Assembly: GCF_019311235.1 (NCBI RefSeq)
Contig: NZ_JAHWDF010000005.1
Span: 62,001 to 126,000, forward strand
Length of the DNA: 64,000 bases
From: Mesonia aestuariivivens
Lineage (GTDB): Bacteria > Bacteroidota > Bacteroidia > Flavobacteriales > Flavobacteriaceae
Direction of reading: 5' to 3'
Both the position numbers and the translations under genes were made by a program. Below the pieces are notes generated by a model. The model was not told where the DNA came from. It saw only the letters and a program-made list of their open reading frames with translations, and searched no databases. This document shows, piece by piece, positions 22,817-62,031 of the stretch. Position 1 is the stretch's first letter, and the number at the start of each line of letters is the position of its first letter.

Positions 22817-22932
22817 GCATTTCCCTCCTAAAGTCGGGTCGGGCTATTCACTATATCTTTTTTGCCTAGATCACATCGATCTGAATAAAAAGTTGTGCTA
22901 GCAAAAAAGGATGCCGCTTCTATCCCTAATGC
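22817..22932 (+). repeat. Interspersed palindromic element, copy 1 (116 nt)
   Basis: From 22834 this copy shares a 32-nt left arm (TCGGGTCGGGCTATTC then CTATATCTTTTTTGC) and a 34-nt right arm (GCAAAAAAGGATGCCGCT, CTATCCCT) with the copy at 36514-36623. The arms carry an inner inverted repeat CTTTTTTGC / GCAAAAAAG. Between them is a 35-nt core unrelated to that of the other copy but exactly as long. The outer ends GCATT and AATGC pair; in copy 2 a different sequence pairs at the same place. It fills the space between two minus-strand genes. I recall similar sequences between genes in other flavobacteria, but cannot confirm a name. Confidence 0.82.
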
Positions 22933-22948
22933 AAGAATAGGTTAAAAA

Positions 22949-23461
22949 TTAATTCCAATTTTCATCAAAATCGTAATCATCTAGATTTTCAAAATCTACC
23001 TCATCTTCACCAAATTCATCTTCTAATTCTGCATCTTCGGCTTCAAAATTCTTTTCTGGTGGGCTGTCTGGTAATTGTCCGTGTGCAAACATTAAGTTAG
23101 GGTAATCTCTACCTTCTTCAACTTCTGAAATAGCGGCAAGTTCTACGTAAAACGTCCACATGCTAAAGAAATCATACACATAAATAAGTTTGGTGTTCTT
23201 TTCATCTACTACAGAATCCAAACTAGTTTCATTCATCATGCGTACAGAATTCATTCCTTCGCTCATATCAAAAAGAACAATTTCTTCACCTTGATTCCAT
23301 TCTTCATCAGTAAGATAAAATGATGCCATTTCTGTACCATCAAAACCAAAGGCTTGGGTTACAGAATTATGAAGATCTTCTAGTGTTGCATTCTCTTCAA
23401 TTTCAATATCTCTAAAAACATCATCTAAAGTATCTAAAACTATTCTGAATTTATAAATCAT
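22949..23461 (-). CDS. pRiA4b ORF-3-like / IS1096 TnpR-like family protein
   Basis: A 170-residue protein of the pRiA4b ORF-3 family (PF07929): a ubiquitin-like opening strand (YKFRIVLDTLDDVFRDIEI), the helix LHNSVTQAFGFDGTEMASFY and the strand KLIYVYDFFSMWTFYVEL are the usual marks. The family is named after plasmid and insertion-sequence passenger genes, but chromosomal flavobacterial members are frequent and no transposon end is visible here. The last 35 residues are almost all acidic and aromatic (E/D runs ending in DENWN), suggesting a disordered DNA-mimic-like or binding tail. It has a well-formed promoter at 23485-23516. Function unknown. Confidence 0.75.
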   Translation of the reverse strand: MIYKFRIVLDTLDDVFRDIEIEENATLEDLHNSVTQAFGFDGTEMASFYLTDEEWNQGEEIVLFDMSEGMNSVRMMNETSLDSVVDEKNTKLIYVYDFFSMWTFYVELAAISEVEEGRDYPNLMFAHGQLPDSPPEKNFEAEDAELEDEFGEDEVDFENLDDYDFDENWN

Positions 23462-23484
23462 AATTCTTATAAAAATTTGGGATG

Positions 23485-23516
23485 CAAAGATACGTTTTCA
23501 AAACTGTATTAGGCAA
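23485..23516 (-). promoter_or_regulatory. Promoter of the pRiA4b-like gene
   Basis: On the minus strand TTG (23516-23514), a 21-base spacer and TATCTTTG (23492-23485) match the Bacteroidota promoter TTG-N17-23-TAnnTTTG. The expected transcript start is about 15 bases before the ATG at 23461. Confidence 0.6.
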
Positions 23517-23546
23517 ATACATTTTGAGGTAACTAAAACTATTTTA

Positions 23547-24563
23547 TTATTTGCTAAATCTATGTAAAACAAACGTCATAGCAGCCAATAGGCAAAATGC
23601 ACCAACTTGGTGAGTTACGCCAAGCCATACAGGCACTTGGTAAATAAGCGTAAAAATACCTAGCAAAAATTGTATAAACACGATAATAAGTAAGGTGTTA
23701 ATTCCATTTTTTTGAGCTGTTGTGAGTGATATTTTCTTAGTTTTATACCAAATAAGAAGTATTGCTGCGACTACGAAATAAGCGAGATAGCGGTGTACAA
23801 ATTGAACGCCACTTTTACCAGCAATAAAGTTTCTCCAAACTGGGTTTTGTTCTATATAAACCGTTTCATGAATTAATTTTCCTTCTGCCATAAATGGCCA
23901 GCTATTATGTATAAAACCTGCATCTAAACCAGCTACAAAAGCACCCCAAGTAATTTGAAGTATTAAAATAATCATTCCAACCCAAATCCATTTTTTCATA
24001 TTGGGTACGACTGGTTTTATGTTATTTTTATAAATAATATCGAGCGCAACCCAAAATGAATAGGCAAAAGTAATAAAAGCTGTCATTAAGTGAGCTGCTA
24101 AGCGATAATGACTAACAGAAGGCCTGTCTATTAATCCGCTTTTTACCATATACCAACCCATAAAACCTTGAAAACCTCCTAAGCATAATAATAAGATAGC
24201 TTTTTTAATGGTAGATTTTGTGAGTTGCTTAGTGAATAAAAAATATAAGAACGGAATAATAAATACCACACCTATAAGTCGGCCAATTACACGATGAATC
24301 CACTCCCAAAAATAAATTCCTTTAAAGTCTTCTAAGCTAAAGTGGTAATGAAGTTTTTGATATTCTGGGTATTGCTTATAAAGCTCAAAAGCTTCTACCC
24401 ATTCTTGCTGATTCATAGGGGGAACAACACCATGAATTAATTTGTAATTCGAGATAGAAAGTCCTGAATTAGTTAAGCGTGTTATCCCGCCAACCACTAC
24501 CATAATAAAAATAAGGGCGCAACCCGTTAATAGCCAATATACTACTTTTTTATTGTCTCTCAT
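23547..24563 (-). CDS. ctaA: Heme A synthase (COX15/CtaA family)
   Basis: This integral membrane enzyme oxidises the methyl group of heme O to make heme A for aa3-type cytochrome oxidases. At 338 residues it is the longer COX15-like form, with about eight membrane helices. The heme-ligand and active-site histidines are in HRVIGRLIG (first bundle), HYRLAAH, FVHRYLAY and VTHQVGAF. GGITRLTNSGLSI after helix 1 is the family signature. It starts at ATG 24563, 61 bases after the cca stop. No oxidase or heme O synthase gene (ctaB) is in the window, so it is separated from its pathway partners here. Confidence 0.93.
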   Translation of the reverse strand: MRDNKKVVYWLLTGCALIFIMVVVGGITRLTNSGLSISNYKLIHGVVPPMNQQEWVEAFELYKQYPEYQKLHYHFSLEDFKGIYFWEWIHRVIGRLIGVVFIIPFLYFLFTKQLTKSTIKKAILLLCLGGFQGFMGWYMVKSGLIDRPSVSHYRLAAHLMTAFITFAYSFWVALDIIYKNNIKPVVPNMKKWIWVGMIILILQITWGAFVAGLDAGFIHNSWPFMAEGKLIHETVYIEQNPVWRNFIAGKSGVQFVHRYLAYFVVAAILLIWYKTKKISLTTAQKNGINTLLIIVFIQFLLGIFTLIYQVPVWLGVTHQVGAFCLLAAMTFVLHRFSK

Positions 24564-24624
24564 TGTTTATAGAATTATCGCTAGTGATCTTATTTTTAGA
24601 TATTAAGAATATTGTTTACTCATT

Positions 24625-26043
24625 TTAAAGCTTTAATTGCTTTCCTTTTTCTAACATAAATTGATAAGCAGCTTCATAATTATTTGGAATTTCACCTTCT
24701 AAGATAGCTTCTTTTATCGCATTTTTTATGATTCCTATTTCTTTGGAAGGTTTTATATGAAAGGTTTCCATAATTTCTTCTCCTGAAATTGGAGGCTGAA
24801 AGTTACGCACATGATCTCTCTCTTCTACTTCTTTTAACTTTTGTCTCACCACTTGAAAATTGTTGTGATATCGTTTGTAACGTTTTGGGTTTTTAGTGGT
24901 AATATCTGCCTCACAAAGTGTCATTAAATCTTCAATGTAATCTCCGGCATCAAAAATAAGTCTGCGTACTGCAGAATCAGTCACATGATCTTCTGCAATA
25001 ACAATAGGGCGGGAGCTCATTAACACCATTTTTTGTACAAACTTCATTTTTTCATTGAGCGGCATTTTTAAGCGTTTGAAAAGTTTAAATACCATTTTGG
25101 CACCTACAAATTCGTGACCATGAAATGTCCAACCAATTTTTTTATGAAATCTTTTGGTGGGCGCTTTGCCAATATCGTGTAATAAGGCAGCCCAACGCAG
25201 CCAAAGAGAATCTGTGTTTTCAGAAATATTATCGACCACTTCTAAAGTATGCCAGAAGTTATCTTTATGACGCTGACCTTCTTTTTCATCGATACCTTGT
25301 AATGCTGAAAGTTCTGGTAGAATAATAGGAAGAAGCTTTGTCTTTCTAAGTAAAGCAAAACCTACTGATGGTTTTGCTGAAAGTAAAATTTTATTGAGTT
25401 CTTCAACAATACGTTCTCTAGAGATAATTTTGATACGTTTATGATGTTCTATAATCGCATCGAGTGAATTTTCTTCAATTTTAAAACCCAATTGAGCAGC
25501 AAACCTGATGGCTCGCATCATTCTTAACGGATCGTCAGAATAAGTGATTCCTGGTTCAAGTGGTGTTTTGATGAGTTGTTGTTTCAGGTGCTCTAACCCA
25601 TTAAAAGGGTCAAGAAGTTTTCCGAAATTTTCTTTGTTTAGTTGCAGCGCTAAGGCATTAATCGTGAAATCTCTTCTGTTTTGATCGTCTTCTAATGAGC
25701 CCTGTTTAACTTCTGGATTACGAGAATTTTCATTGTAAGATTCTTTTCTGGCTCCAACAAATTCAATTTCCAAATCAAAAGCTCGTAACATAGCTGTGCC
25801 ATACGTTTTAAAAACTTGCACTTTTGGTTGATGAGGTAATAGTCTAGAAACTTCTTCAGCAAGAGCGATGCCGCTACCTACAGCAACAACATCTATATCT
25901 TTAGCTTCACCGCGCTGCAAAAAAAAATCTCTTACGAACCCACCTATAGCATAGGTTTCAAGCGATAAATTTTCTGCAGCTTGACTTATATATTCAAATA
26001 TTTTATGAGATAGAGCTTCTGTATAAAGTTGATCCTGCGGCAT
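24625..26043 (-). CDS. cca: CCA-adding tRNA nucleotidyltransferase with HD domain
   Basis: The enzyme builds or repairs the 3'-CCA end of tRNAs. The class II nucleotidyltransferase head shows GGFVRD (34-39) and the metal-binding D-I-D at 49-51, followed by RRDFTINAL and the RMMRAIRFAAQLGF helix. An HD phosphohydrolase-like domain lies near 265-380 (HTLEVVDNI, LLHDIGKAPT), giving a total of 472 residues, as in related bacteroidal enzymes. It starts at ATG 26043, one base after the stop of tsaC. That places it last in a tight run that also includes three glycosyltransferase genes. The family also contains poly(A) polymerases, but the HD-bearing type is normally CCA-adding. Confidence 0.9.
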   Translation of the reverse strand: MPQDQLYTEALSHKIFEYISQAAENLSLETYAIGGFVRDFFLQRGEAKDIDVVAVGSGIALAEEVSRLLPHQPKVQVFKTYGTAMLRAFDLEIEFVGARKESYNENSRNPEVKQGSLEDDQNRRDFTINALALQLNKENFGKLLDPFNGLEHLKQQLIKTPLEPGITYSDDPLRMMRAIRFAAQLGFKIEENSLDAIIEHHKRIKIISRERIVEELNKILLSAKPSVGFALLRKTKLLPIILPELSALQGIDEKEGQRHKDNFWHTLEVVDNISENTDSLWLRWAALLHDIGKAPTKRFHKKIGWTFHGHEFVGAKMVFKLFKRLKMPLNEKMKFVQKMVLMSSRPIVIAEDHVTDSAVRRLIFDAGDYIEDLMTLCEADITTKNPKRYKRYHNNFQVVRQKLKEVEERDHVRNFQPPISGEEIMETFHIKPSKEIGIIKNAIKEAILEGEIPNNYEAAYQFMLEKGKQLKL

Positions 26044-26044
26044 T

Positions 26045-26605
26045 TTATTTTCTGATAATTTGCACTTTTCCGTCTAGACTTAATTTAATAACTGTTGACG
26101 GTTTAGCACTTTTTTTAGACGGTTGCAAATTTACAACATAGTCTACTCCTTTTAAAATTTCCGGACTAATTTGATCGAAAGATTTTGGGGTTGGTTGTCC
26201 GCTAATATTTGCTGAAGTAGAAACGATAGGTCTTTTAAATTTTCTAATGAGTTTGTTACAAAAAGTATCTTTACAAACTCGAATGGCTAAGGAGTTGTCT
26301 TCTGCAATTAAATTTTCTGCTACGCGAATAGGGTCATCAAAAACAATAGTAGTAGGTTTTTCTGCATATTTTAAAATATCGTAAGCTACTTCTGGTATTT
26401 CTTCTACATATTGATTAAGCATTTTGTAATCTGAGACTAAGCAAATCATGCTTTTATTTTCTGCTCTCTTCTTTAAGGCGAAAATTTTATCTATGGCTTC
26501 AGCATTTGTTGCATCACAACCAATACCCCAAACGGTGTCTGTAGGGTAGAGTATGAGGCCGCCACGTTTTAAAATGGCCGTAGTATTATTTATTTCTTCT
26601 TTCAT
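26045..26605 (-). CDS. tsaC: L-threonylcarbamoyladenylate synthase (TsaC/YrdC type)
   Basis: TsaC makes threonylcarbamoyl-AMP from threonine, bicarbonate and ATP, the first step to the t6A37 base in ANN-decoding tRNAs. The 186 residues form a single YrdC domain with the ATP-binding KRGGLILYPTDTVWGIGCDA opening, the KKRAENKSM loop and the STSANISGQPTP motif near the C-terminus. It lacks the Sua5 C-terminal domain. Start is ATG 26605, four bases after the end of the putative rhamnosyltransferase gene and one base before cca, so two tRNA-maturation genes sit together behind glycosyltransferase genes. Confidence 0.92.
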   Translation of the reverse strand: MKEEINNTTAILKRGGLILYPTDTVWGIGCDATNAEAIDKIFALKKRAENKSMICLVSDYKMLNQYVEEIPEVAYDILKYAEKPTTIVFDDPIRVAENLIAEDNSLAIRVCKDTFCNKLIRKFKRPIVSTSANISGQPTPKSFDQISPEILKGVDYVVNLQPSKKSAKPSTVIKLSLDGKVQIIRK

Positions 26606-26609
26606 AATT

Positions 26610-27446
26610 TTATTTTCTTAAGCGTATTGATCTTTTTATATCTTTAAAAATGCATTTTAAATGTGTACCAAAATAATTGCTAATATTTAAAAATATCCAA
26701 TTACTTTTTGATGCTAATTTATTTGTGATTTCTTCTCTTTTCTGATCATTTATTTTAAAATTAAGTAATTGATTAGAAGCAACATTTCCATAACCAGTAA
26801 ACTCATTCACTTTATTTTCTTGGTGAATAATAGACATCCATAACCTTTTATTATTAATTCGTTTTACTAAAGGATCTAATTTCCAGTCTGCATGACTTTT
26901 TTGCCAAACAGATTGTGGTTGATTGTTTTCTTCAATTAGACTAATAAATGGATTCCATAATTGACGCTTTTTGCCTAATTTAAAATCTGGTGAAATTTGT
27001 AATGTATATCCATCTGCATAATCAAGTGCTTGATGTTTAGTTTCTATAAATCTATCTTGAATGTCTTTTATAAAATTATAAGAAATACAATCGTCATTAT
27101 CAATTCTAGTAGAAATAATATATTGCGATTTAGATTTTTGTAACTCTTTTTGAATAGACGGTACAAATGCTTGCATGTTATTTACATAACGAGGCTGAAA
27201 TTTAGGGTATCCCATTGAAAGTCCTAAAATACGGTCTTTAAAAACTTGAGGAGTATCTTCATCAAAATATACTAGCCAAATGAAATTTTGATTGTTTTGG
27301 CTTTTAATAGAAGGGAAACAGAAATTTTCAAATAAATTAAAACGTCTTTCTAGCCATTCTTCTGTAAGTACAGGAATGTTGTTTTTAGAAGTGCTCCATC
27401 CTTCTTTTTTTAGATTAAATCGCGTAATAAGATAGTGTTGGTACAT
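26610..27446 (-). CDS. Putative rhamnosyltransferase (PF11316-like)
   Basis: A 278-residue cytoplasmic protein with the pattern of the putative rhamnosyl transferase family: YQHYLITRFNL at the start, WLERRFNLFENFCFPSIKSQ, NFIWLVYFDEDTP and the acidic STRIDNDDC box that resembles a nucleotide-sugar DxD motif. It would add a sugar to a surface polysaccharide or lipooligosaccharide; the actual sugar is not shown by sequence. It begins at ATG 27446, three bases after the stop of the GT2 gene upstream and four bases before tsaC, so it is part of a tight five-gene run. Confidence 0.72.
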   Translation of the reverse strand: MYQHYLITRFNLKKEGWSTSKNNIPVLTEEWLERRFNLFENFCFPSIKSQNNQNFIWLVYFDEDTPQVFKDRILGLSMGYPKFQPRYVNNMQAFVPSIQKELQKSKSQYIISTRIDNDDCISYNFIKDIQDRFIETKHQALDYADGYTLQISPDFKLGKKRQLWNPFISLIEENNQPQSVWQKSHADWKLDPLVKRINNKRLWMSIIHQENKVNEFTGYGNVASNQLLNFKINDQKREEITNKLASKSNWIFLNISNYFGTHLKCIFKDIKRSIRLRK

Positions 27447-27449
27447 ATA

Positions 27450-28382
27450 TTATAGCTCTTCTATTTTTTGTTTAAGTTTTAATGAATAATTTATACCACC
27501 ACCTTTTAATAATACTTTAAAAAGATAAAAGTGTTTAGGCTTCACTATAGAACTAAAAAAGTATTTTACTCTTAAATGATTGAGTAAAAGTTTGTGTGCA
27601 AAATAGCCATAGTGTTTTCTTATGGTATATAATAAAGAAATTTTCATTTCTGTTTTGCTTAATATTGTACGTGGTGTACTTGCATTTTTATAATGAATAT
27701 ATTTTAAACCTGGTATTAAATAAGTCTTTTTTCCTCTTTCTTTTAATAGCCTTAAGCATAAATCAGATTCTTCATAATAAAGAAAAATATTAGTATCAAA
27801 ACCACCAACCGTATCAAATTCTTTAGCATCTACAAATAGAAATGAGCCTTGTACATAATTTACTGCTGTAGGTTTAGTGTAAGTTGTTTTTCTATTTAAA
27901 TATTTTTTTGGATTTAACTTCTCTAATAATGATCTCTTAATTATTTCTCTCTTTAATGATGAAAAATGATCTATGGTTACACTAAAATTTTTATGCTGGT
28001 CTAACATCTGAGGTGAACACACCGCTGCATCTGGTGTGTTTATCATAAATTCTTTTAATATCTTTAAACAGTTTCTAGATACTTGTAGCGTGTCATTATT
28101 TATAAATGCATAGTAATTAGAAGGAGATGTTTGTAAAACACCATACATGTTACCCCCACCAAAACCAGTATTAATTCTACTTCTGTAAATTTTTACTTTA
28201 TTATTATTTAATTGATCTAAGCTTTTTTTAAGTAAAGTGAAATCTTCTATTTTAGAGCAATTGTCTACCACAATAATTTCTAAACTTAAATCATTTTCAT
28301 GAAAATCTAGTATAGATTTTACAGCTTTTGTAGTATATTTAGAAGTATTGTAATTAATTATGATACAACTTATATCAATCAT
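27450..28382 (-). CDS. GT2 family glycosyltransferase (WbbL/rhamnosyltransferase-like)
   Basis: The 310-residue protein opens with the GT2 nucleotide-binding strand ISCIIINYNTSKYT, then the VVDNCSK acid, the NTGFGGGNMYG stretch and FINNDT (in place of DxD), followed by VGGFDTNIFLYYEESDLCLRL, a catalytic ED-type motif. This combination is typical of WbbL-like rhamnosyltransferases that use dTDP-sugars. The C-terminus is basic and amphipathic, suiting attachment to the inner membrane. Its gene sits one base from the GT4 gene upstream and three bases from the next one. The sugar and acceptor are not known. Confidence 0.85.
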   Translation of the reverse strand: MIDISCIIINYNTSKYTTKAVKSILDFHENDLSLEIIVVDNCSKIEDFTLLKKSLDQLNNNKVKIYRSRINTGFGGGNMYGVLQTSPSNYYAFINNDTLQVSRNCLKILKEFMINTPDAAVCSPQMLDQHKNFSVTIDHFSSLKREIIKRSLLEKLNPKKYLNRKTTYTKPTAVNYVQGSFLFVDAKEFDTVGGFDTNIFLYYEESDLCLRLLKERGKKTYLIPGLKYIHYKNASTPRTILSKTEMKISLLYTIRKHYGYFAHKLLLNHLRVKYFFSSIVKPKHFYLFKVLLKGGGINYSLKLKQKIEEL

Positions 28383-28383
28383 A

Positions 28384-29442
28384 TTAGCTTAAAATTTTTT
28401 TCCATCGTTTTGCATTTTCTAAAATAGTAAACTGCTTAGAAAAATTAATGCAATTTTCACTCATTGCTGCTAATGGAGGTTGATTTTTTATAATTTCTTT
28501 TATTTTTTTTCCTAAATCACCTTCTTTGTATAAAAAACCTAAATTTTCATCAATTATTTCATTAGGTCCAGAATGATTAGTAGATATTGGTATGGTGCCT
28601 TGAGACATGGCTTCAATTAAGACCATTCCAAAAAGTTCTTCCCATTTTTTTGTTTTATGAGAATTTAAAATCAAAAATGTTTTTTTTTCAATATAAGAGG
28701 CTAGTAATGTTCTATTGCTTACATATTCTATATACTCTATATTTTTTTTTCGGGTAGATTTATCTAATACTTGATTTTTAAGTTTACCATTTCCTATAAT
28801 GGTTAATGATAAGTCGGGATTGTTACTGAAAAAATTAATCATTTCTTCAATACCTTTTTCTGGAGTTATTCTTCCTACATAAATAAAGCTTTTCTGATTA
28901 TCTTTTTTATGAATAGTAGTTTTTAAAAACTCATTCGAGATAGAATGGTAGACCACACTAATTTTATTAGAGTCTAAGTTGTAATTATTTAAAATTTCAT
29001 TTTTAGTATGATTGGTAACCGTAAAAATATGCTTGCATTTATTTTCTATAAATTTTTCCCAAACTTTTAGAACGCTATGGGCATTTTTTTTAAGCTTTTT
29101 TGGCTGAAATGACTTATCCCAACACGTCCATGACGTGTGGTAAAAAACTTGATGTCTATTTAACACCCAAAGTAATCGACTTAATTTACTGTCGTATGGA
29201 GCTATACCTAGAATTATTTTTTTATTTTTGGACAATAATAAATGAACAAGAAAAAAAGCATTAGTCATCTGCTTAATAAAAAGTTTTCTGTTAGCCTTGG
29301 TTATACTTTTAAGTAGTTTGCTAGCTACCGAAAACTCTCTGTATTTTAAATCAATATTTTGGGTTTTACATAAATGAGCTAAACCTAGGTAATGATTGTT
29401 AGCACCATTTTTATGTAAAATATATATTTTTTTTTGTTTCAT
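28384..29442 (-). CDS. GT4 family glycosyltransferase
   Basis: This 352-residue protein has a GT-B fold: an N-terminal Rossmann domain with HKNGANNHYLGLAHLC and HTSWTCWDK, then the C-terminal donor-binding domain starting SFIYVGRITPEKGIEEMI, with the E-x7-E region GMVLIEAMSQGTIPISTNHSGPNEII. That places it in family GT4. It is the first gene of the five-gene run GT4, GT2, rhamnosyltransferase, tsaC, cca. The coding sequence is even more A/T-rich than its neighbours, with T runs up to nine bases, as often seen in glycan loci gained by transfer. Donor sugar unknown. Confidence 0.85.
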   Translation of the reverse strand: MKQKKIYILHKNGANNHYLGLAHLCKTQNIDLKYREFSVASKLLKSITKANRKLFIKQMTNAFFLVHLLLSKNKKIILGIAPYDSKLSRLLWVLNRHQVFYHTSWTCWDKSFQPKKLKKNAHSVLKVWEKFIENKCKHIFTVTNHTKNEILNNYNLDSNKISVVYHSISNEFLKTTIHKKDNQKSFIYVGRITPEKGIEEMINFFSNNPDLSLTIIGNGKLKNQVLDKSTRKKNIEYIEYVSNRTLLASYIEKKTFLILNSHKTKKWEELFGMVLIEAMSQGTIPISTNHSGPNEIIDENLGFLYKEGDLGKKIKEIIKNQPPLAAMSENCINFSKQFTILENAKRWKKILS

Positions 29443-29499
29443 TTAAAGTTATAATTATAAAAGTAATTAAGGTTTACAAACTTAACATATAATAAATTT

Positions 29500-30360
29500 A
29501 TGGTTTACGATTGTTTTATATTTTTTAATGAGTTAGATTTATTAGAATTACGTTTAAATGAATTAGATAAGGTAGTAGATAAATTTGTACTTGTAGAAGC
29601 CGATAAAACTTTCCAAAACCAATCTAAACCCTATTATTTTGAAGAGAATAAGCATAGATTTGAAAAATTTTCAGGAAAAATAATTCATATAAAGTTAAAT
29701 AAATATCCTCGATTTAATAAGCTTTTTAATCCTTTTTCTCCCTGGAAATTAGAATCTTACCAGCGTAATGCGATGGTTGAAGGTTTAAAAGATTGTAAAC
29801 CAGATGATGTAGTTTTATTTACAGATGTAGATGAAATTCCCTCTTCTACGGTTATTACTGACTTTAAGAAAAACAAAGTAAATCAAATTTGTGGTTTAAA
29901 GATGCATATGTTTATGTATTTCTTTAACAATCAAGTAACTTTTTCTGAAGGTAGCAAAATGACAGTAGAGGAGAGTAAGAATGGTTTATGGCATTGTGGC
30001 TCTATTATGCCTTACATACTTCTAAAAAAATCACCTCAGAAATATAGACGTGCAATTATGAGAACCAAGCGAAAAGGTGAAGTTTATAAGATAATATCTA
30101 ATGCAGGGTGGCATTTTACTTATTTGGGCGGTGTAGAAAAAATTCTAGAGAAATTAGAAGCTTTTTCACATACAGAATATAATAACGTTGACTTTAAAGA
30201 TAAAACTAAAATAGCTCGAAGTTTAGAGGAAGGAAATGATTTGTTTGGTAGAAATATAAGCTACCAGATAATCAAAAAAGAATCTGAGTTATTGCCAAAC
30301 TATTTACTTACAAACGAAGCTCAAAGAAAGTTTGCTAAGCATTTTTATTCTCTCAAATAG
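29500..30360 (+). CDS. GT17 family glycosyltransferase
   Basis: The protein (286 aa) matches family GT17, best known from the animal enzyme that adds bisecting N-acetylglucosamine. Marks are the opening YDCFIFFNELDLLELRLNEL, LVEADKTFQNQSKPY, the W-x3-S-Y-Q-R-N stretch, VVLFTDVDEIPS with the metal-binding DVD, and GWHFTYLGG near residue 205. Bacterial members occur in polysaccharide and lipooligosaccharide loci, where they probably add hexosamine. It is divergent from the GT4 gene and 7 bases ahead of the Kdo-kinase-like gene, so both are likely co-transcribed. Confidence 0.83.
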   Translation: MVYDCFIFFNELDLLELRLNELDKVVDKFVLVEADKTFQNQSKPYYFEENKHRFEKFSGKIIHIKLNKYPRFNKLFNPFSPWKLESYQRNAMVEGLKDCKPDDVVLFTDVDEIPSSTVITDFKKNKVNQICGLKMHMFMYFFNNQVTFSEGSKMTVEESKNGLWHCGSIMPYILLKKSPQKYRRAIMRTKRKGEVYKIISNAGWHFTYLGGVEKILEKLEAFSHTEYNNVDFKDKTKIARSLEEGNDLFGRNISYQIIKKESELLPNYLLTNEAQRKFAKHFYSLK

Positions 30361-30367
30361 ATAGCAA

Positions 30368-31132
30368 ATGGTATCAAAGTATTCAGTAAAATATAAATCT
30401 TTTTCTAAGATTATTGAAGAACAAATTAAAAACTTTAATTCTCGGGGAGAGATGTTAGGCAATGCTCAGCGTAATGTAATTAAATTATTTTCTGTTGATA
30501 GAGAAGATTTAATTTTAAATATAAAATCTTTTAAAGTCCCCAACCTTGTCAATCAATTTGCTTACAAATACTTTAGAAAAAGTAAGGCAAGAAGATCTTT
30601 TGAGTATGCTCAAAAGTTACAAAAATTAGGTTTAGGTACGCCAGATCCTATTGCATATGTAGAATTTCCTTCCGCAACTTTATTTAAAAAAAGTTTTTAT
30701 GTAAGTGAGCATTTAGAAGCAGATTATACCTATCGCGACTTAACGCATAATTTTGAGATACCCCATCATGAAGATATTTTAAGAGCATTTACCCGATTCA
30801 CATTCCAGCTTCACCAAAAAAATGTGCTTTTCTTAGATCATTCACCAGGAAATACTTTAATCAAAATTAATAATGAAGATTACCAGTTTTATTTGGTTGA
30901 TTTAAATAGAATGGAATTTAAAGAACTTTCTTTTAAAGAACGTATTAAGAATTTTGAAAGACTTACTGTTCATAAGTCAATGGTTAAAGTGATGAGTGAT
31001 GAATATGCTAAATGTAGTGGTGAAAGTTATGACCAAATATTTGAGTTAATGTGGGGTGAAACTCAAAAATTTCAAGAGAAATTTCATAAAAAACGTCAGA
31101 TAAAAAAGAAACTCAAATTCTGGAAAAAATAA
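30368..31132 (+). CDS. Kdo/WaaP-type lipopolysaccharide kinase-like protein
   Basis: At 254 residues this resembles the Kdo kinase / InaA / WaaP group of small kinases that phosphorylate sugars in the inner core of lipopolysaccharide. It has the invariant-lysine region in VNQFAYKYFRKSKARRSF, a helix-C region (SFEYAQKLQKLGLGTPDPIAY), a hinge (YVSEHLE), the catalytic loop FLDHSPGNTLIKI with D-x4-N, and a metal-binding LVDLNRM. It is a soluble, basic protein. It follows the GT17 gene by 7 bases; the two are probably made together and act on the same glycan. The exact sugar phosphorylated is unknown. Confidence 0.8.
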   Translation: MVSKYSVKYKSFSKIIEEQIKNFNSRGEMLGNAQRNVIKLFSVDREDLILNIKSFKVPNLVNQFAYKYFRKSKARRSFEYAQKLQKLGLGTPDPIAYVEFPSATLFKKSFYVSEHLEADYTYRDLTHNFEIPHHEDILRAFTRFTFQLHQKNVLFLDHSPGNTLIKINNEDYQFYLVDLNRMEFKELSFKERIKNFERLTVHKSMVKVMSDEYAKCSGESYDQIFELMWGETQKFQEKFHKKRQIKKKLKFWKK

Positions 31133-31133
31133 T

Positions 31134-31892
31134 TTATGCTCTATTTTTTCTAAGTAACCACAGTTTTACATAACGCATAAAAACGGTGTAACTCTGTATG
31201 TAACTAATGGTTAAGCCTACAACGCCATCTCTAAAACCACCTTGCATAATGTAGTGTTTAAAAAAGCTCCATAAGGGCTTAATTACAAAATGGTAGGGCG
31301 TTAGTTTTCCTGTTTTTTTATCATAATCACCAGCTTGCCACCAAGCGTATCGGTTCATTTTTTCTAAATGTTTATCGATGGTGATATAGGTGTTATGATA
31401 AAATTTATGTTTTAATTTTCCTATTTTTCCTTCTGCAATAATTTCTGCGTGCACTTGTTTATCTTCATACTTGCAAAAATCTCTTTTAAATAGACGTATT
31501 ACTTTGTCATTTTTCCAACCACTATGTTTTACGTGTTTTCCCATGAAATGGTTTTTACGACCAATCCAGTAACCAACCGTATTGTCTGTGGGTGGGTTTT
31601 TGAGAATGCTAATGATTTCTGCTTCCAATTCAGGAGTTACTCTTTCATCTGCATCAACTAAAAGAATCCATTCATATTTTGCTTGCGGAATTGCCCAGTT
31701 TTTTTGAGATGCAGAGTATTGATATTCTCTTCTTATTACTTTATGTGCTAATTGTATAGCTTTTTCATAAGTTCCATCAGAACTAAGGCTGTCTGCTACA
31801 AGAATTTCATCAGCAAATTTTACAGAAGAAATAACATCTTCAATATTATGTATTTCGTTACCTGCAGGTATTAAAACTGTAAGTTTTTCCAA
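31134..31892 (-). CDS. GT2 glycosyltransferase, WaaE/KdtX-like
   Basis: A 252-residue GT2 enzyme with LTVLIPAGNEIHNIEDVISS, VADSLSSDGT, the SASQKNWAIPQAKYEWILL stretch and LLVDADERVTPEL, where DAD is the metal-binding DxD. The later WIGRKNHFMGKHVKHSGW and RLFKRD stretches are typical of WaaE/KdtX-like transferases that add a hexose to the lipopolysaccharide core. The start is TTG 31892; no ATG would preserve the first strand. It is convergent with the Kdo-kinase-like gene, one base between the stops. The donor is not known. Confidence 0.84.
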   Translation of the reverse strand: MEKLTVLIPAGNEIHNIEDVISSVKFADEILVADSLSSDGTYEKAIQLAHKVIRREYQYSASQKNWAIPQAKYEWILLVDADERVTPELEAEIISILKNPPTDNTVGYWIGRKNHFMGKHVKHSGWKNDKVIRLFKRDFCKYEDKQVHAEIIAEGKIGKLKHKFYHNTYITIDKHLEKMNRYAWWQAGDYDKKTGKLTPYHFVIKPLWSFFKHYIMQGGFRDGVVGLTISYIQSYTVFMRYVKLWLLRKNRA

Positions 31893-32079
31893 AAGGTTTA
31901 TTTCTAGCGTTTATAGGTTTTCAAAAAAACAACAAAGCATGCTTTATAAAAAGATGATTTGTTTGTTAAAAGGTTGCTTCAAATTTCAAGTTTTTTTTAA
32001 TTCTGAAAAAGACTTTGGCAAATTTAATTATTTTTGTTTAATCTTATGCTTTAAAATAATCAATTTGAAAGGAAAAAAT

Positions 32080-32892
32080 TTGAAAGTTTCAGTAATCTTA
32101 AGTACTTATAATTCTGAAAGTTGGCTTGAAAAAGTACTTTGGGGCTATGAGCAACAGACTAATAGAGACTTTGAAGTAGTGATTGCTGATGATGGTTCTA
32201 AAAAACCAACAATTGATTTAATTGATAAGTTAAAGACAAAATTATCTTATAGCATCCAGCATATTTGGCACAAAGATGATGGCTTTCAGAAATCTAAAAT
32301 ACTTAATAAATCTATTCTTGCTGCTAAAGCAGATTATTTGGTAATGAGTGATGGTGATTGTATTCCGCGAAAAGATTTTATAGAGACTCATTTAAATTTT
32401 AGAAAAAAAGGATATTTTCTCTCGGGTGGTTATTTTATGCTTCCTCTAGAAATTTCAGAGTCTATTACTAAAGAAGATATTATTTCTCAAAATTGTTTTC
32501 AAGTAAATTGGTTAAAAAATAGAGGCTTAAAAACTTCTTTTAAAAACAAAAAATTACAAACAAATTTATTTATACAAGGGTTTCTAAATAATTTAACACC
32601 TACTAATGCGAGTTGGAACGGCCATAATGCTAGCGGATGGAAAGAAGATATATTGGCTGTTAATGGCTTTGATGAGCGTATGCAATATGGAGGTCAAGAT
32701 AGAGAATTGGGAGAGCGGCTCTTTAATTATGGTATTAAGTCTAAACAGATTAGGTATTCTGCTATTTGTTTACACTTAGATCACCCTAGAGGTTATAAAA
32801 CCCAAGAATCTATCGATAAGAATTTAGCTATTCGAAAAGAAACCAGATCTAAAAATATTATAAAAACTCCTTTTGGGATAGAAAAATTATAA
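32080..32892 (+). CDS. GT2 family glycosyltransferase
   Basis: A GT2 enzyme of 270 residues beginning at KVSVILSTYNSESWLEKVL, with VVIADDGSKKPT, the metal-binding box MSDGDCIPRKDF and the catalytic NGFDERMQYGGQDRELGERL. These resemble galactosyl- and N-acetylgalactosaminyltransferases of the chondroitin-polymerase-like group. I chose TTG 32080 because it starts at the first beta-strand and is preceded by GGA; the open frame runs back to ATG 31939, but those 47 residues are a hydrophobic/basic stretch of no recognisable fold. The 187 bases before the TTG thus look like untranslated leader. The end overlaps the convergent GT9 gene by 6 bases. Confidence 0.8.
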   Translation: MKVSVILSTYNSESWLEKVLWGYEQQTNRDFEVVIADDGSKKPTIDLIDKLKTKLSYSIQHIWHKDDGFQKSKILNKSILAAKADYLVMSDGDCIPRKDFIETHLNFRKKGYFLSGGYFMLPLEISESITKEDIISQNCFQVNWLKNRGLKTSFKNKKLQTNLFIQGFLNNLTPTNASWNGHNASGWKEDILAVNGFDERMQYGGQDRELGERLFNYGIKSKQIRYSAICLHLDHPRGYKTQESIDKNLAIRKETRSKNIIKTPFGIEKL

Positions 32893-33969
32893 TATATTTT
32901 TTAGGTAAGATTCCAACTTTTTAAGGAAAAATTCAGCTTTAAACATTTTGTAATAAGATGAAGCTTCTTCTCTTATTTCTTTTAAGTTGTATTTTTTGTA
33001 ATTTTCAGGATAGTAATCTTCTAAATGAACACTTACATTTTTATTATTTTCATAAAGCGACCAAGCAGCGCGTTTAGTGAAAGGAGCAAAAATTGAAAAA
33101 GTAGGAACTTCCAACGCTTTAGCCATATTTACCGCCCCACCTTCATTTCCTATAAAAGCGCTGCATAAAGAAGTTAATGCCATAAATTCTCGTAAGCTTT
33201 TCCCGTAAATAGAATAATGAATTCGGTGTTGCGTTTCAAGTTTACAAAGTTTAATTAACCTTTCAACGGTTTCCTTCTGTTTAGGAATGTAATTAAATAA
33301 TAATTCGGCACCAGTAGTTTCAATAATCTTATTTAAAACTTCAGCTAAATAAGAAAGTGGATAGCTTTTTTCTTCTGAAGATCCCAAAACCCCAATCATA
33401 AATAGAGGTTTATTTAATAAGTTTTCTTGATGGAGTATTTTTCTAGCCGAAGTAATTTCTTTCTCGGTCAAATATATTTTTGGTTTTATCGCTACAGGAT
33501 AGGAGTGATCTAACGATTGTAATAAATTCATACGGTTTTCAACAGCAAGTCCAGCATTGGTGTCAGCTTTAGTTTTGTAGGTGTAAAGCTCATTATAAAC
33601 TAATTTGCTATACCATTTTTTATAGCCAATTTTTAGTTGGGCTTTAGAGAATTTAGCAATAAGAACGCTTACTGGCTTAGAATACACATCAATCACCACG
33701 TCGTAGTTATCTCTTTTAATTTGCTGAAGAAAATGAAAAAGCTTTGTGGGAGACTTTTCTATTTCTTTAGTCATCACTACTTCTTTGTCTATAAACGGAT
33801 TGTTTTCAATTACAGGAGTGGTATGAACGTTTACTAAAAAATGAACTTCTGATGCAGGATTTTTTTGTTTAATTGCTTCACATATAATTGAAGAGGTAAG
33901 GACATCACCAATCATTTTCTGCTGAATAATAAGATATTTGGCGGTTTGTAGAGATAGTTTAGTTTTCAT
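32887..33969 (-). CDS. GT9 family (heptosyltransferase-like) glycosyltransferase
   Basis: This protein of 360 residues has a GT-B fold like ADP-heptose:LPS heptosyltransferases: AKYLIIQQKMIGDVLTSSIICE at the start, HFLVNVHTTPVIE, DVVIDVYSKPVS, then MIGVLGSSEEKSYPLSYL and the donor-binding AFIGNEGGAVNMAKAL, where the family usually has a D/G-G-x-x-H. It would add heptose or another sugar to the inner core. I chose ATG 33969; a GTG 11 codons upstream lies inside the loop of a hairpin that looks like the terminator of dapD. The 3' end overlaps the convergent GT2 gene by 6 bases. Confidence 0.83.
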   Translation of the reverse strand: MKTKLSLQTAKYLIIQQKMIGDVLTSSIICEAIKQKNPASEVHFLVNVHTTPVIENNPFIDKEVVMTKEIEKSPTKLFHFLQQIKRDNYDVVIDVYSKPVSVLIAKFSKAQLKIGYKKWYSKLVYNELYTYKTKADTNAGLAVENRMNLLQSLDHSYPVAIKPKIYLTEKEITSARKILHQENLLNKPLFMIGVLGSSEEKSYPLSYLAEVLNKIIETTGAELLFNYIPKQKETVERLIKLCKLETQHRIHYSIYGKSLREFMALTSLCSAFIGNEGGAVNMAKALEVPTFSIFAPFTKRAAWSLYENNKNVSVHLEDYYPENYKKYNLKEIREEASSYYKMFKAEFFLKKLESYLKNIL

Positions 33970-33990
33970 AGAGAAAATGAAGGTTAAGTA

Positions 33991-34017
33991 AAGCCTCCTC
34001 ACTTTAAAAGGAGGCTT
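33991..34017 (-). terminator. Hairpin after dapD
   Basis: AAGCCTCC (33991-33998) and GGAGGCTT (34010-34017) pair around an 11-base loop, 10 bases after the dapD stop. The T run on the dapD strand is short (TTTACTT), so it may only partly stop transcription, allowing reading into the GT9 gene. Confidence 0.55.
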
Positions 34018-34026
34018 ATAAGAATT

Positions 34027-34842
34027 TTAAACGGCTACATTATATTCACGTAAAGCATCGTTTAGAGAAGTTTTCTTATTGGTACTTTCTTTACGTTTTC
34101 CAATAATTAAAGCACATGGAACATTAAATTCACCAGCAGGGAATTTTTTGGTATAAGAACCCGGAATTACTACCGAACGAGCAGGAACAATTCCTTTCAT
34201 TTCTAGCGGTTCATCCCCTGTAACATCGATAATTTTTGTGGAAGCAGTCAATACTACATTGGCACCTAAAACAGCTTCTTTTTCTACACGAACGCCTTCA
34301 ACTACAATGCTTCTAGAACCTAAAAAAGCATTGTCTTCAATAATTACTGGAGATGCTTGTAAAGGCTCTAAAACACCACCAATACCAACGCCGCCAGAAA
34401 GGTGTACGTTTTTACCAATTTGAGCGCAACTTCCTACGGTTGCCCAAGTATCGACCATTGTCCCTTCATCAACATAAGCTCCAATATTTACATAGCTTGG
34501 CATCATAATTACACCACTGGAAATATAAGCTCCATGTCTTGCTACAGCATTGGGTACCACGCGAATTCCTTTCTCTTTATAACCTGTTTTTAAAGGCATT
34601 TTATCATGATATTCAAAAATACCTGCTTCTAAGGTTTCCATTTTCTGAATAGGGAAATATAAAACAACTCCTTTTTTAACCCATTCATTTACTTGCCATC
34701 CCTCTGAAGTTGGTTCTGCTGTACGTAGCTCACCAGTGTCTATTAAATTAATGACTTCACGAATTGCTTTCTGGGTTTTATCTTCTTTTAATAGCTCACG
34801 GTTATCCCAAGCTTCTAAAATTATTTTTTTTAAATCTTCCAT
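34027..34842 (-). CDS. dapD: Tetrahydrodipicolinate N-succinyltransferase
   Basis: DapD adds succinyl from succinyl-CoA to tetrahydrodipicolinate in the diaminopimelate/lysine pathway, feeding peptidoglycan. The 271-residue protein has the short helical N-terminal domain (MEDLKKIILEAWDNRELL) and a left-handed beta-helix of hexapeptide repeats (about 100-235, for example GAYVDEGTMVDTWATVGSCA and NAFLGSRSIVVEGV). ATG 34842 is the usual family start; a TTG six codons upstream overlaps a -7 promoter box. It is divergent from ruvX. Assignment is secure. Confidence 0.96.
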   Translation of the reverse strand: MEDLKKIILEAWDNRELLKEDKTQKAIREVINLIDTGELRTAEPTSEGWQVNEWVKKGVVLYFPIQKMETLEAGIFEYHDKMPLKTGYKEKGIRVVPNAVARHGAYISSGVIMMPSYVNIGAYVDEGTMVDTWATVGSCAQIGKNVHLSGGVGIGGVLEPLQASPVIIEDNAFLGSRSIVVEGVRVEKEAVLGANVVLTASTKIIDVTGDEPLEMKGIVPARSVVIPGSYTKKFPAGEFNVPCALIIGKRKESTNKKTSLNDALREYNVAV

Positions 34843-34857
34843 AGGTGAATTTTTGCT

Positions 34858-34891
34858 CAAATATAAGGCTTCAAATTAAATATTACAGCAA
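34858..34891 (-). promoter_or_regulatory. Promoter of dapD
   Basis: On the minus strand TTG (34891-34889), 23 bases and TATATTTG (34865-34858) fit TTG-N17-23-TAnnTTTG at the upper spacing limit. The box lies 16 bases before ATG 34842, which also argues against the upstream TTG as a start codon. Confidence 0.5.
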
Positions 34892-34906
34892 TAGCTATAG
34901 AAGTGT

Positions 34907-34914
34907 TACCTTTG
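34907..34914 (+). promoter_or_regulatory. Candidate -7 box of the ruvX operon
   Basis: TACCTTTG matches TAnnTTTG exactly, 15 bases before ATG 34930. No properly spaced TTG is seen on this strand. It lies back to back with the dapD promoter. Confidence 0.4.
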
Positions 34915-34929
34915 CCAAAAAAAATAAGT

Positions 34930-35334
34930 ATGGCTAGAATTTTGGCCTTAGATTTCGGAACTAAACGAACTGGCGTAGCGGTAACAGATGAGTTAAAAAT
35001 GATTGCGTCAGGTTTAACTACTGTAGAAACACCAAAACTTCTGGTTTTTTTGGAAGATTACTTTTCTAAAGAAAATGTAGAGTTAGTACTTGTAGGAGAA
35101 CCTAAACAAAAAGATGGCGTCGCATCGCAAAGCGAAGAATTTATTCAGGAGTTTTTAAAAAAGTTTACTGAAAAATTTCCGCAATTGAAACTAGAACGTG
35201 TTGATGAACGTTTTACTTCTAAAATGGCAGTACAAACCATGATTGATAGCGGACTAAATAAAAAGAAACGAAGAAATAAAGCTTTAGTAGACGAGATTAG
35301 TGCCACTATAATTTTACAATCATACTTATATTGA
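34930..35334 (+). CDS. ruvX: Putative Holliday junction resolvase / pre-16S rRNA nuclease
   Basis: A 134-residue RNase H-fold protein of the YqgF/RuvX family, implicated in trimming the 5' end of 16S rRNA and proposed to resolve Holliday junctions. Catalytic acids lie in LALDFGTKRTGVAVTD, in the VLVGEP stretch and in DERFTS; the C-terminal VDEISATIILQSYL completes the fold. I use ATG 34930, the usual MARILALDFG start; an upstream in-frame start would overlap the -7 box. It leads a run of same-strand genes with def and the DUF5606 gene. Confidence 0.93.
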   Translation: MARILALDFGTKRTGVAVTDELKMIASGLTTVETPKLLVFLEDYFSKENVELVLVGEPKQKDGVASQSEEFIQEFLKKFTEKFPQLKLERVDERFTSKMAVQTMIDSGLNKKKRRNKALVDEISATIILQSYLY

Positions 35335-35386
35335 TGATTGATAAGAACATCATCAAATTTTCAAATTAAAAAATTATTAGATTAAC

Positions 35387-35977
35387 ATGATATTACCAGT
35401 TGTAGCTTACGGAGATCCCGTTTTAAAGAAGAAAGCAAAAGATATTTCTAAAGAATATCCAAAACTAAACGTGCTTATCGAAAATATGTTCGAAACCATG
35501 TATGGAGCATTTGGAGTAGGTTTAGCGGCTCCACAAATTGGTTTGCCTATTCGTTTATTTGTGATTGATGCTGCTTCTTTTGCAGAAGATGAAGACCTTT
35601 CTCTAGAAGATCAGGAACAATTAAAAAAGTTAAAAAAAGCTTTTATTAATCCTAAAATTACGAGCGAAATAGGAGATGAATGGGCTTTTAATGAAGGTTG
35701 TTTAAGTATTCCAGAAGTGCGTGAAGATGTATTTAGAAAACCTGAAATTACGATTGAATATTACGATCAAGACTTTAAAAAGCATACCGAAACTTACGAT
35801 GGTTTGGCGGCAAGAGTAATTCAGCATGAGTATGATCATATTGAAGGAATTTTATTTACCGATAAATTATCGACGCTAAAGAAAAGACTGATTAAGAGTA
35901 AATTACAAAAAATAAGTAAAGGAGAAATTCGTGTAGATTATAGAATGCGTTTTCCTAACGCAAAAAAAGCACGTTAA
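35387..35977 (+). CDS. def: Peptide deformylase
   Basis: Def removes the formyl group from the first methionine of new proteins. All three metal-site motifs are intact: GVGLAAPQIG (43-52), EGCLSIP (103-109, metal ligand C105) and HEYDH (147-151, two metal-binding histidines and the catalytic glutamate in QHEYDHIEG). At 196 residues it has a small charged insert (about 65-85, EDEDLSLEDQEQLKKLKK) common in bacteroidal forms. It follows ruvX by 52 bases and precedes the DUF5606 gene by 54. Confidence 0.97.
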   Translation: MILPVVAYGDPVLKKKAKDISKEYPKLNVLIENMFETMYGAFGVGLAAPQIGLPIRLFVIDAASFAEDEDLSLEDQEQLKKLKKAFINPKITSEIGDEWAFNEGCLSIPEVREDVFRKPEITIEYYDQDFKKHTETYDGLAARVIQHEYDHIEGILFTDKLSTLKKRLIKSKLQKISKGEIRVDYRMRFPNAKKAR

Positions 35978-36031
35978 TTTTTGTAAATAAACCAAGAGAT
36001 TAGATATTTGCGACCCTTAAAAAATTAAAAC

Positions 36032-36463
36032 ATGAGTTTAGAAAAAGTATTAGCTATTTCAGGAAAACCGGGATTGTATGAATTAAAAGCACAAACCCGC
36101 GGTGGTTTTGTAGCAGAATCATTAGCAGATCGCAAAAAAATATCGGTAAATGTACGTCACAATGTAAGCATGCTTAGTGAAATTGCAATGTACACTTATA
36201 CAGAAGAAGTTCCTTTAAGAGCAGTTTTTGAGAAAATTTCAGAAAAAGAAGATGGTAAAGAAACTATTAACCATAAAGAATCTAAAGTTAAATTAGAAGC
36301 ATATTTCAAAGAAGTCTTACCAGATTACGATGAAGATCGCGTGTATTCTAGCGATATTAAAAAAGTATTTCAATGGTATAATATTTTGGTAAAAGCAGGA
36401 ATAACAGATTTCTCAGAACCAAAAGAAGAAGAGAAAAAAGAAGTTTCTTCAGAAGAAGAATAA
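36032..36463 (+). CDS. DUF5606 family protein
   Basis: This 143-residue soluble protein matches DUF5606, a family restricted mainly to Bacteroidota and usually found next to def. The N-terminus (LEKVLAISGKPGLYELKAQTRGGFVAESL) looks like a small SH3/Tudor-like barrel, the middle (about 75-120) is helical with YDEDRVYSSDIKKVFQWYN, and the C-terminal 20 residues are a K/E-rich tail. No function is known; the constant link to def and ruvX hints at a translation- or ribosome-related job. It ends at a clear terminator. Confidence 0.8.
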   Translation: MSLEKVLAISGKPGLYELKAQTRGGFVAESLADRKKISVNVRHNVSMLSEIAMYTYTEEVPLRAVFEKISEKEDGKETINHKESKVKLEAYFKEVLPDYDEDRVYSSDIKKVFQWYNILVKAGITDFSEPKEEEKKEVSSEEE

Positions 36464-36482
36464 ATACTTAAAAAAACAGATT

Positions 36483-36510
36483 AGCCTTGTAATTTTTACA
36501 GGGCTTTTTT
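36483..36510 (+). terminator. Terminator of the ruvX-def-DUF5606 run
   Basis: AGCCTTGTAA (36483-36492) pairs with TTACAGGGCT (36496-36505) with one G-T wobble, followed by T6. It lies 20 bases after the DUF5606 stop and directly before the second copy of the interspersed element. Confidence 0.78.
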
Positions 36511-36513
36511 ATG

Positions 36514-36623
36514 GCAAGACCCTATCGGGTCGGGCTATTCGCTATATCTTTTTTGCATGTAACCTAGAACATATAGAAAGGTCTTTATTAAGCAAAAAAG
36601 GATGCCGCTGCTATCCCTCTTGC
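36514..36623 (+). repeat. Interspersed palindromic element, copy 2 (110 nt)
   Basis: The two arms match copy 1 (22817-22932) with one mismatch in the left 32 nt and three in the right 34 nt. The 35-nt core between them has the same length as in copy 1 but no visible similarity. The ends GCAAGA (36514-36519) and TCTTGC (36618-36623) pair, where copy 1 has GCATT/AATGC, so pairing is kept while sequence changes. It is followed (36669-36683) by a small separate palindrome GATTCC-GAA-GGAATC. This copy lies on the coding strand of its neighbours, copy 1 on the opposite one, so the element is not tied to transcription direction. Confidence 0.82.
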
Positions 36624-36741
36624 AAAAACTCATCAAAAACTCCATCCCGAACTATAAATTAACGATGAGATTCCGAAGGAATCGAGTAAACCCTAAATTC
36701 TATTCAATAAATCGTACTTTTAAACTTCCAAAACAAAACTC

Positions 36742-38727: not shown

Positions 38728-38822
38728 AATCTTAGGTTTATGCTGAGGTAATCTAATTTTAAATTAGTTTTTTATTCGTTTGATTTCGAGCGGAGTCGAG
38801 AACTTTTCAATTTTAAAAATTA

Positions 38823-61341: not shown

Positions 61342-62031
61342 ATGAAAAAACTAATTTTAGCTTGCACTTTATTATTTACTATGATTGCTGTTGCGCAAGA
61401 GCAATCTACAGGAATTTCTGTAAACGGTGAAGGAACGGTAAAGGTAATACCAGATGAGGTGCTTATTCAAGTAAATGTAAACCAAGAAGCAAAAACTGCA
61501 AAAGAAGTAAAGGCAAATACAGACCAAGTTATAGATGCGGTTTTAAAATATTTGGCAAATCAAAAAATTAAAGAAAAACACATACAAACCGAATACATTA
61601 GGTTAAGTAAAACTTATAAGTACGATAATAAAACTTATGTTTTTACCGCCAATCAAAGTGTATCTATATTATTAACAGATATTTCTAAATATGATGAAAT
61701 AACACAAGGCTTATTAGAACTTGGTATAAATGGAATAAATAGTGTAAACTTTCAATCTTCAGAAATAGAGAAATACGAAGCTGAAGCACGTTTAAAAGCT
61801 ATTGCAAATGCAAAAGAAAAAGCAGAAGAATATGCTGAAGCTTTGGTAATTAAAGTAGGGGTACCAACTTTAATTAGTGAAAATTCATCATCTAATTATT
61901 CACCTACTCCGGTTTATAGAGCTATGGAAATGAAGCAGTCAAATACTTCATCTTCTAATCAGCAAACATTGGCTGTAGGAGAAATGGAAATTAAAGCTCA
62001 AGTTCACGTAAATTTTTCAATCATTCATTAA
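61342..62031 (+). CDS. SIMPL domain (DUF541) exported protein
   Basis: The 229-residue protein begins MKKLILACTLLFTMIAVAQ, a Sec signal peptide. The mature part is one SIMPL/DUF541 domain: ISVNGEGTVKVIPDEVLIQVNV, then EKHIQTEYIRLSKTYKYD, NGINSVNFQSSEIEKYEAEARLKAIANAKEKAEEYAEAL, and a final QVHVNFSI strand. SIMPL proteins form large ring-like periplasmic or outer-membrane assemblies (BP26-like) whose role is not settled; some affect oxidative stress. ATG 61342 starts the signal peptide. It ends at a strong shared terminator. Confidence 0.88.
   Translation: MKKLILACTLLFTMIAVAQEQSTGISVNGEGTVKVIPDEVLIQVNVNQEAKTAKEVKANTDQVIDAVLKYLANQKIKEKHIQTEYIRLSKTYKYDNKTYVFTANQSVSILLTDISKYDEITQGLLELGINGINSVNFQSSEIEKYEAEARLKAIANAKEKAEEYAEALVIKVGVPTLISENSSSNYSPTPVYRAMEMKQSNTSSSNQQTLAVGEMEIKAQVHVNFSIIH

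Follow-up and report, generated by a model that had tools for sequence, protein, structure and literature searches.

Two copies of Flavo-1 in the window

The stretch of DNA analysed here (the window) comprises 64,000 nucleotides (nt) of Mesonia aestuariivivens, positions 62,001 to 126,000 of contig NZ_JAHWDF010000005.1, and carries two copies of an interspersed element. Both copies lie on the minus strand and align to all 76 positions of the Rfam model RF01705 (Flavo-1), scoring 58.4 and 55.2 bits, above the gathering score of 42 bits that sets membership; the E-values (3.9e-10 and 3e-09 for a search space of 64 kb) exclude chance for both. The family itself is already known, and its filing as a small RNA (sRNA) is doubtful. 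Here we show that Flavo-1 has a strand-specific fold, that its paired positions covary, and that its arms are conserved in place while its apex is free to decay, invert or be replaced. The copies are laid out as follows, where REP stands for repetitive extragenic palindrome and G123 is a genome with orthologs of both copies:

22817..22932, minus strand: Flavo-1 copy 1, the entire element including both sides of the outer stem (RF01705 match at 22833-22947; series of orthologs)
22834..22865, minus strand: copy 1, 3′ arm of the long imperfect hairpin, 32 nt, the left arm of the original prediction (sequence; paired arm in the Rfam alignment)
22866..22900, minus strand: copy 1 core (apex), 35 nt, a decayed REP-type insert (similar to the orthologous G123 core, p=0.004)
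22901..22934, minus strand: copy 1, 5′ arm of the long hairpin, 34 nt (sequence; Rfam alignment)
22823..22838, minus strand: copy 1, side hairpin CCC..GGG with a variable loop, overlapping the arm by 5 nt (sequence; orthologs similar)
36514..36623, minus strand: Flavo-1 copy 2, whole element (RF01705 match at 36524-36628; series of orthologs)
36525..36556, minus strand: copy 2, 3′ arm, 32 nt (sequence)
36557..36591, minus strand: copy 2 core (apex), 35 nt, a decayed REP-type insert (similar to the orthologous G123 core, p=0.001)
36592..36625, minus strand: copy 2, 5′ arm, 34 nt (sequence)
36520..36529, minus strand: copy 2, side hairpin CCC..GGG, overlapping the arm (sequence)

Direct reading of the two copies confirmed the arms of the original prediction, which was made from the letters alone: 32 nt on the left with one mismatch between copies and 34 nt on the right with three. 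It also confirmed the inner stem CTTTTTTGC/GCAAAAAAG and the outer pairings, GCATT/AATGC in one copy and GCAAGA/TCTTGC in the other. By eye, copy 2 starts a few bases past a terminator-like hairpin and run of T residues. By eye, the annotated strand of Flavo-1 forms three parts: an outer stem, often GCNNNA paired with its complement; a long hairpin with imperfect pairing; and a side hairpin, CC..GG, whose loop varies. The paired columns of RF01705 omit the outer stem and the side hairpin. From its base, the long hairpin starts with three pairs and an A·G mismatch; a T-A pair and then a free pair lead to a GNA/GNA loop, beyond which come two pairs, an inner loop that occurs as one of two linked subtypes, and the stem that closes the core.

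The arms covary as a folded structure

A pattern scan of GTDB genomes and viral contigs returned at least 120 unique matches, from which a filter dropped 24 (three of them viral and not Flavo-1, many others plausible divergent copies) and kept 96, 94 from GTDB and two from viral contigs. This set represents a single inner-loop subtype and was drawn from the GTDB matches listed, a scope that applies to every GTDB count below. Five variable columns of the arms form Watson-Crick pairs in 89, 92, 93, 92 and 91 of the 94 GTDB copies, against shuffled means of 37.1, 29.7, 30.3, 48.2 and 69.3, and all 96 copies agree. The purine mismatch is conserved, as A·G in 91 and as G·A in three of the 94, and of the 96 copies 95 have GNA on the left and all have it on the right, the first G of each being demanded by the filter.

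The outer stem behaves in the same way. At k=4, 73 of 96 outer blocks are matched by their own partner; when partners were drawn from other copies, the number averaged 48.9 and never exceeded 63. At the site of copy 2 (locus 2), the outer stem is GCAAG, GCATT or GCGTT across species, each with a matching partner. Together, the five covarying columns, the partner test and the locus 2 stems bear out the claim that compensatory change maintains a folded form, and the fold that had been proposed is right.

One strand carries the fold

On a double-stranded site, G·T and A·C mismatches are expected to be about equally frequent on a given strand. The annotated strand of 246 unique copies holds 47 G·T, 11 A·C and 28 other mismatches (p=2e-06); a smaller set of 200 copies has 47 G·T and 10 A·C, and the GTDB copies alone have 27 and 2, found in 24 and 2 of the 94 copies, respectively. 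We then divided the mismatches by gene context, using a parser that misses copies with GAT inside the core (the 246-copy total comes from a better one). The G·T to A·C ratio was 18:6 for copies whose folded strand runs antisense to the genes on both sides (p=0.023), 9:2 for those in which it runs sense to them, 9:1 between convergent and 5:0 between divergent genes, and 6:1 where a neighbour is missing. Because the excess of G·T persists even in copies that are antisense on both sides, it is the annotated single strand that is kept folded: one strand, as RNA or as single-stranded DNA (ssDNA), is constrained whichever strand the neighbours transcribe. The annotated strand is also predicted to be the more stable one in 78 of 96 copies with RNA parameters and in 65 of 96 with DNA parameters. 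Counting G·T against A·C per strand and gene context offers a cheap test, needing only sequence, that tells strand-specific folds from double-stranded palindromes.

The apex decays, inverts and is replaced while the arms are kept

The original prediction had held that the two cores are of equal length and share no sequence, and that they may be guide-like or bind a target. The equal length of 35 nt is true of the two window copies and is not a rule, as cores range from 13 to 64 nt among 30 copies in the same genome (the cut includes the closing GC pairs, and one copy, L009, was miscut and is truly about 15 nt). Nor are the cores without shared sequence: each aligns to REP-type cores better than shuffled sequences do (p 0.0000 to 0.007 with three references), and each resembles the core of its own ortholog in G123, with the p-values listed above. 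These orthologs hold an intact REP-type palindrome in the apex, with exact matches at C4:187178 and C4:202148. From these alignments, the window cores are two decayed inserts of the same ancestral length, and such inserts come to look like unrelated guides because REP-type palindromes sit in the apex, probably as passengers lodged there. Among REP2-type sites (at most one mismatch), at least 3 of the 12 in the own genome and at least 5 of the 17 in G123 fall inside the apex of a known Flavo-1 copy, as counted against partial lists of copies. Free-standing palindromes of the kind seen in ancestral cores also exist, including one in the window around which we saw no Flavo-1 arms:

38784..38803, plus strand: free-standing REP-type palindrome (sequence matches)

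Comparing the cores with possible targets gave no convincing second match within 174 kb of the own genome (the whole genome was not searched), and copy 1 had no match in phages. A guide-like core is unlikely because the arms are kept while the loop decays, flips or is replaced, and core lengths of 13–64 nt in 30 copies do not support a CRISPR-like or guide RNA, for which a core of fixed length would be expected.

The behaviour of the apex is seen most clearly at orthologous sites. Between G123 and a further genome, G131, the arms of 14 ortholog pairs are identical at 486 of 490 positions (99%), as against 491 of 542 in the 5′ flanks and 518 of 574 in the 3′ flanks (about 90%); these are the pairs parsed out of 15, and a sixteenth, L085/L087, was set aside since its G131 copy is incomplete. 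The core is recognisably the same in ten pairs and replaced by a different module in four, whose residual similarity has p=0.53, 0.22, 0.047 and 0.73, so that L367/L376 (p=0.047) is the weakest case; the L360/L384 core has diverged and was not replaced. In eight pairs between the own genome and G123 or G131, the arms match at 258 of 280 positions and the flanks at 224 of 325 and 251 of 345, with four cores similar, three unrelated and one inverted (p for the inverted match 0.000). These eight were the ones parsed out of 10 pairs, which did not include two own-genome loci, L011 and L015, that align to L379. A second core inversion was found at the site of copy 1 (locus 1), between G126 and G131. 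Each apex module is made up of either a REP-type palindrome or a short loop. Modules found at one site turn up again elsewhere among the copies of that genome, an observation consistent with copies exchanging them, among other possible routes.

Whole copies are seen to persist at orthologous sites. Across 16 genomes of the genus, locus 1 is by eye intact in eight, decayed in one and without an element in seven. Locus 2, in the 12 genomes with both flanks, has the ordinary form in six, a variant fold in two, a decayed element in two and none in two. Two elements at the position orthologous to copy 2, before a mazG-like gene (L089 in G125, L090 in G121), have by eye a similar outer stem and side hairpin and a different inner hairpin. 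At locus 1 of G121 (L121), the inner-loop subtype has by eye switched on both sides with the outer stem kept, as a longer conversion tract would do.

A folded single-stranded DNA element or a structured RNA

We give an even chance to the reading that Flavo-1 is an interspersed element of about 100–150 bp whose annotated strand folds singly, more likely as ssDNA, in the manner of REP doublets forming hairpins (REPINs), than as an sRNA, with an apex free to decay or exchange. The folded molecule would then be ssDNA, exposed for example at replication. A protein that recognises the arms may have spread Flavo-1, the role proposed for TnpA_REP with REPs, and the apex may be exchanged by ectopic recombination or gene conversion between copies, with the arms and runs of A/T as homology.

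We favour ssDNA over sRNA because there is no excess of sense orientation, the share of G·U is low, and a published transcriptome points the same way. In tandem gene pairs, 20 copies are sense and 22 antisense (64 copies with both neighbours), and a larger set has 46 sense and 80 antisense; the antisense lean is weak and depends on the set, with antisense to sense ratios of 33:16, 28:13 and 14:14 in three subsets. G·T makes up 47 of 3762 paired cells (Watson-Crick plus G·T; 1.2%), against 23 of 290 in tRNAs, a small comparison that comprises 14 tRNAs from the sampled stretches and the window. In the portion of the transcriptome report consulted, Flavo-1 matches lie sense or antisense to transcripts indifferently, many lie outside transcribed regions, and no clue to function is offered (PMC9723704, 2021).

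Several results weigh against the folded-ssDNA reading. No enzyme came to light: Y1_Tnp, the domain of the Y1 transposases, has no match in the own genome. The mobility of Flavo-1 rests on unrelated flanks and on presence and absence, since only a blurred empty site was obtained, at a locus where four relatives with both flanks lack the element and the flanks are too diverged to fix its ends. An exact empty site together with a target-site duplication would be expected of a MITE. A folded ssDNA does not account for the conservation in place of each single copy, and the p-values given above are optimistic, as related copies were counted as independent. ssDNA transposons of the IS200/IS605 kind show a replication-strand bias. 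Flavo-1 has none, with the folded strand leading in 40 and lagging in 48 copies of the closed genomes G062, G109 and G054, whose origin and terminus are only estimated, from sampled skew. We reject a replication-strand preference, and the orientation bias with replication that a derivative of an IS200/IS605-type transposon would be expected to have was not seen. Finally, the strand-specific G·T excess, the purine mismatches and the GNA/GNA loops suit RNA too, and RNA parameters favour the annotated strand more often than DNA parameters do.

The last points bear on the alternative that Flavo-1 is a structured RNA, either an sRNA or an RNA bound by protein, made from its own or from stray promoters, which we regard as possible but doubtful. 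Its Rfam type, 'Gene; sRNA', agrees with this, and in the part of PMC9723704 consulted several 5′ transcribed regions coincide with Flavo-1. However, the indifference to transcript strand described there, the tandem-pair counts and the low share of G·U all speak against an RNA, and no common promoter was seen by eye in the unrelated flanks. If Flavo-1 is instead a folded-DNA repeat, transcriptome work has targeted the wrong molecule.

A more far-reaching form of the ssDNA reading, which we hold to be unlikely, is that Flavo-1 is an HUH/Y1-independent, strand-specific folded-DNA repeat of Bacteroidota, each copy of which is kept at its site for a host function, and whose apex, swapped between copies far above the substitution rate, serves as an exchange or landing site for REP-type palindromes.

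Flavo-1 could also be a true REPIN moved by a REP-associated tyrosine transposase (RAYT, TnpA_REP), though we consider this quite improbable. Inverted arms around a variable spacer, an extragenic position and many copies are all found in REPINs as well, according to the sections of PMC3116915 consulted, and Y1_Tnp is present in 9 of the 16 genomes tested that bear Flavo-1, most of them chosen because they have many copies, compared to 3 of 14 tested genomes without Flavo-1. Yet Y1_Tnp has no match in the other seven bearing genomes, six of which have more than 20 copies, nor in 8 of 16 genomes of the genus, G131 included. With these gaps and the one in the own genome, where the original prediction had suggested looking for a RAYT-type transposase, we reject RAYT as the mover. 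A 5′ GTAG is found in the 14 nt before the hairpin in only 3 of 96 copies.

Like REPs and REPINs with TnpA_REP, Flavo-1 is extragenic, has many copies, and has one specific strand that folds with mismatches in its stem (G·T to A·C 47:11; A·G or G·A in all 94 listed GTDB copies), presumably as DNA. For E. coli REPs, the portion of PMC8266576 consulted reports strand-specific recognition of ssDNA REPs and a required bulge in the stem. Unlike them, Flavo-1 is without the GTAG tag, its arms are asymmetric, its fold is three-way, its tip is variable, and no Y1 transposase was found in the own genome; it resembles REPINs in its general behaviour but lacks two of the features that define them. REPs tagged with CGTC or TGTC have been reported in Bacteroidetes (PMC3733652, in the part consulted). 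Some apex palindromes begin with TGTC, a likeness seen by eye, and these would be passengers in the loop and not Flavo-1 itself.

The two remaining readings are both very improbable. A double-stranded DNA site without strand preference, such as one for a nucleoid protein, gyrase or a cruciform, would suit the lack of a clear bias towards genes or replication, but should give a G·T to A·C ratio near 1:1, where 47:11 and, in the GTDB copies, 27:2 were observed. The attC sites of integrons are folded single strands with a variable terminal structure. A folded, attC-like recombination site for gene cassettes would share both features with Flavo-1, and at one locus (L031) an HNH endonuclease gene and the two inverted copies on either side of it lie within a broken methyltransferase gene; but this is the single such locus studied, on a 4.3-kb contig that is possibly misassembled, neighbouring copies in closed genomes are mostly tens of kb apart with a few pairs closer than 3 kb, and we saw no cassette array at any locus read (an integron integrase was not sought).

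Distribution, published record and neighbouring sequences

The own genome holds 34 RF01705 matches at E<=0.001, of which 23 are above the gathering score. Flavo-1 occurs in 81 of 120 sampled genomes of the family, with at least 36 copies in the richest, and in 28 of 198 sampled genomes across the phylum. Flavo-1 has counted as a candidate structured RNA without known function since 2010. It appears as a table entry in the part of Weinberg et al., 2010 (PMC2864571) consulted and is only listed in that of PMC9029176; we saw no report of a function in the literature found by a search for Flavo-1 or RF01705. We found no description of the apex exchange or of the strand result in the literature searched, which left out most subscription journals.

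Divergent gene pairs are under-represented around Flavo-1, with Fisher p = 0.059, 0.066 and 0.002 in three subsets. Terminator-like sites lie between the gene end and Flavo-1 in 53 of 101 segments, against 21.1 in shuffled sequence; we reject a special link to terminators because ordinary gene ends behave alike (89 of 197). Searching phages and plasmids with copy 2 gave no match at an E limit of 0.01, which lends no support to carriage by either. The scan of viral contigs returned six stretches, of which L261, L262 and L265 do not look like genuine Flavo-1 and L263 has the sequence of L261. The other two, L264 and L266, are uncultivated viral contigs with an apparently genuine Flavo-1, which may be prophage or host flank.

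In genome G111, which has at least 36 scored copies, the hairpin base varies between CCC/GGG, CCT/AGG, CCG/CGG and CCA/TGG. By eye, G062, G109 and G054 seem to carry copies more sparsely in a chromosome region distant from the skew minimum. At L031 (G000:C32, 1501-2655), the inverted Flavo-1 pair encloses a small open reading frame (ORF) together with the HNH endonuclease gene; the methyltransferase gene is intact in G122, and about 404 bp of it are missing in L031. The enclosed genes occur in G129 and G133 with no Flavo-1 seen in 400-bp flanks. At L032 (G000:C23:239500-244000), two inverted copies flank an ORF pair that we take to be leuC-leuD inside the leu gene cluster.

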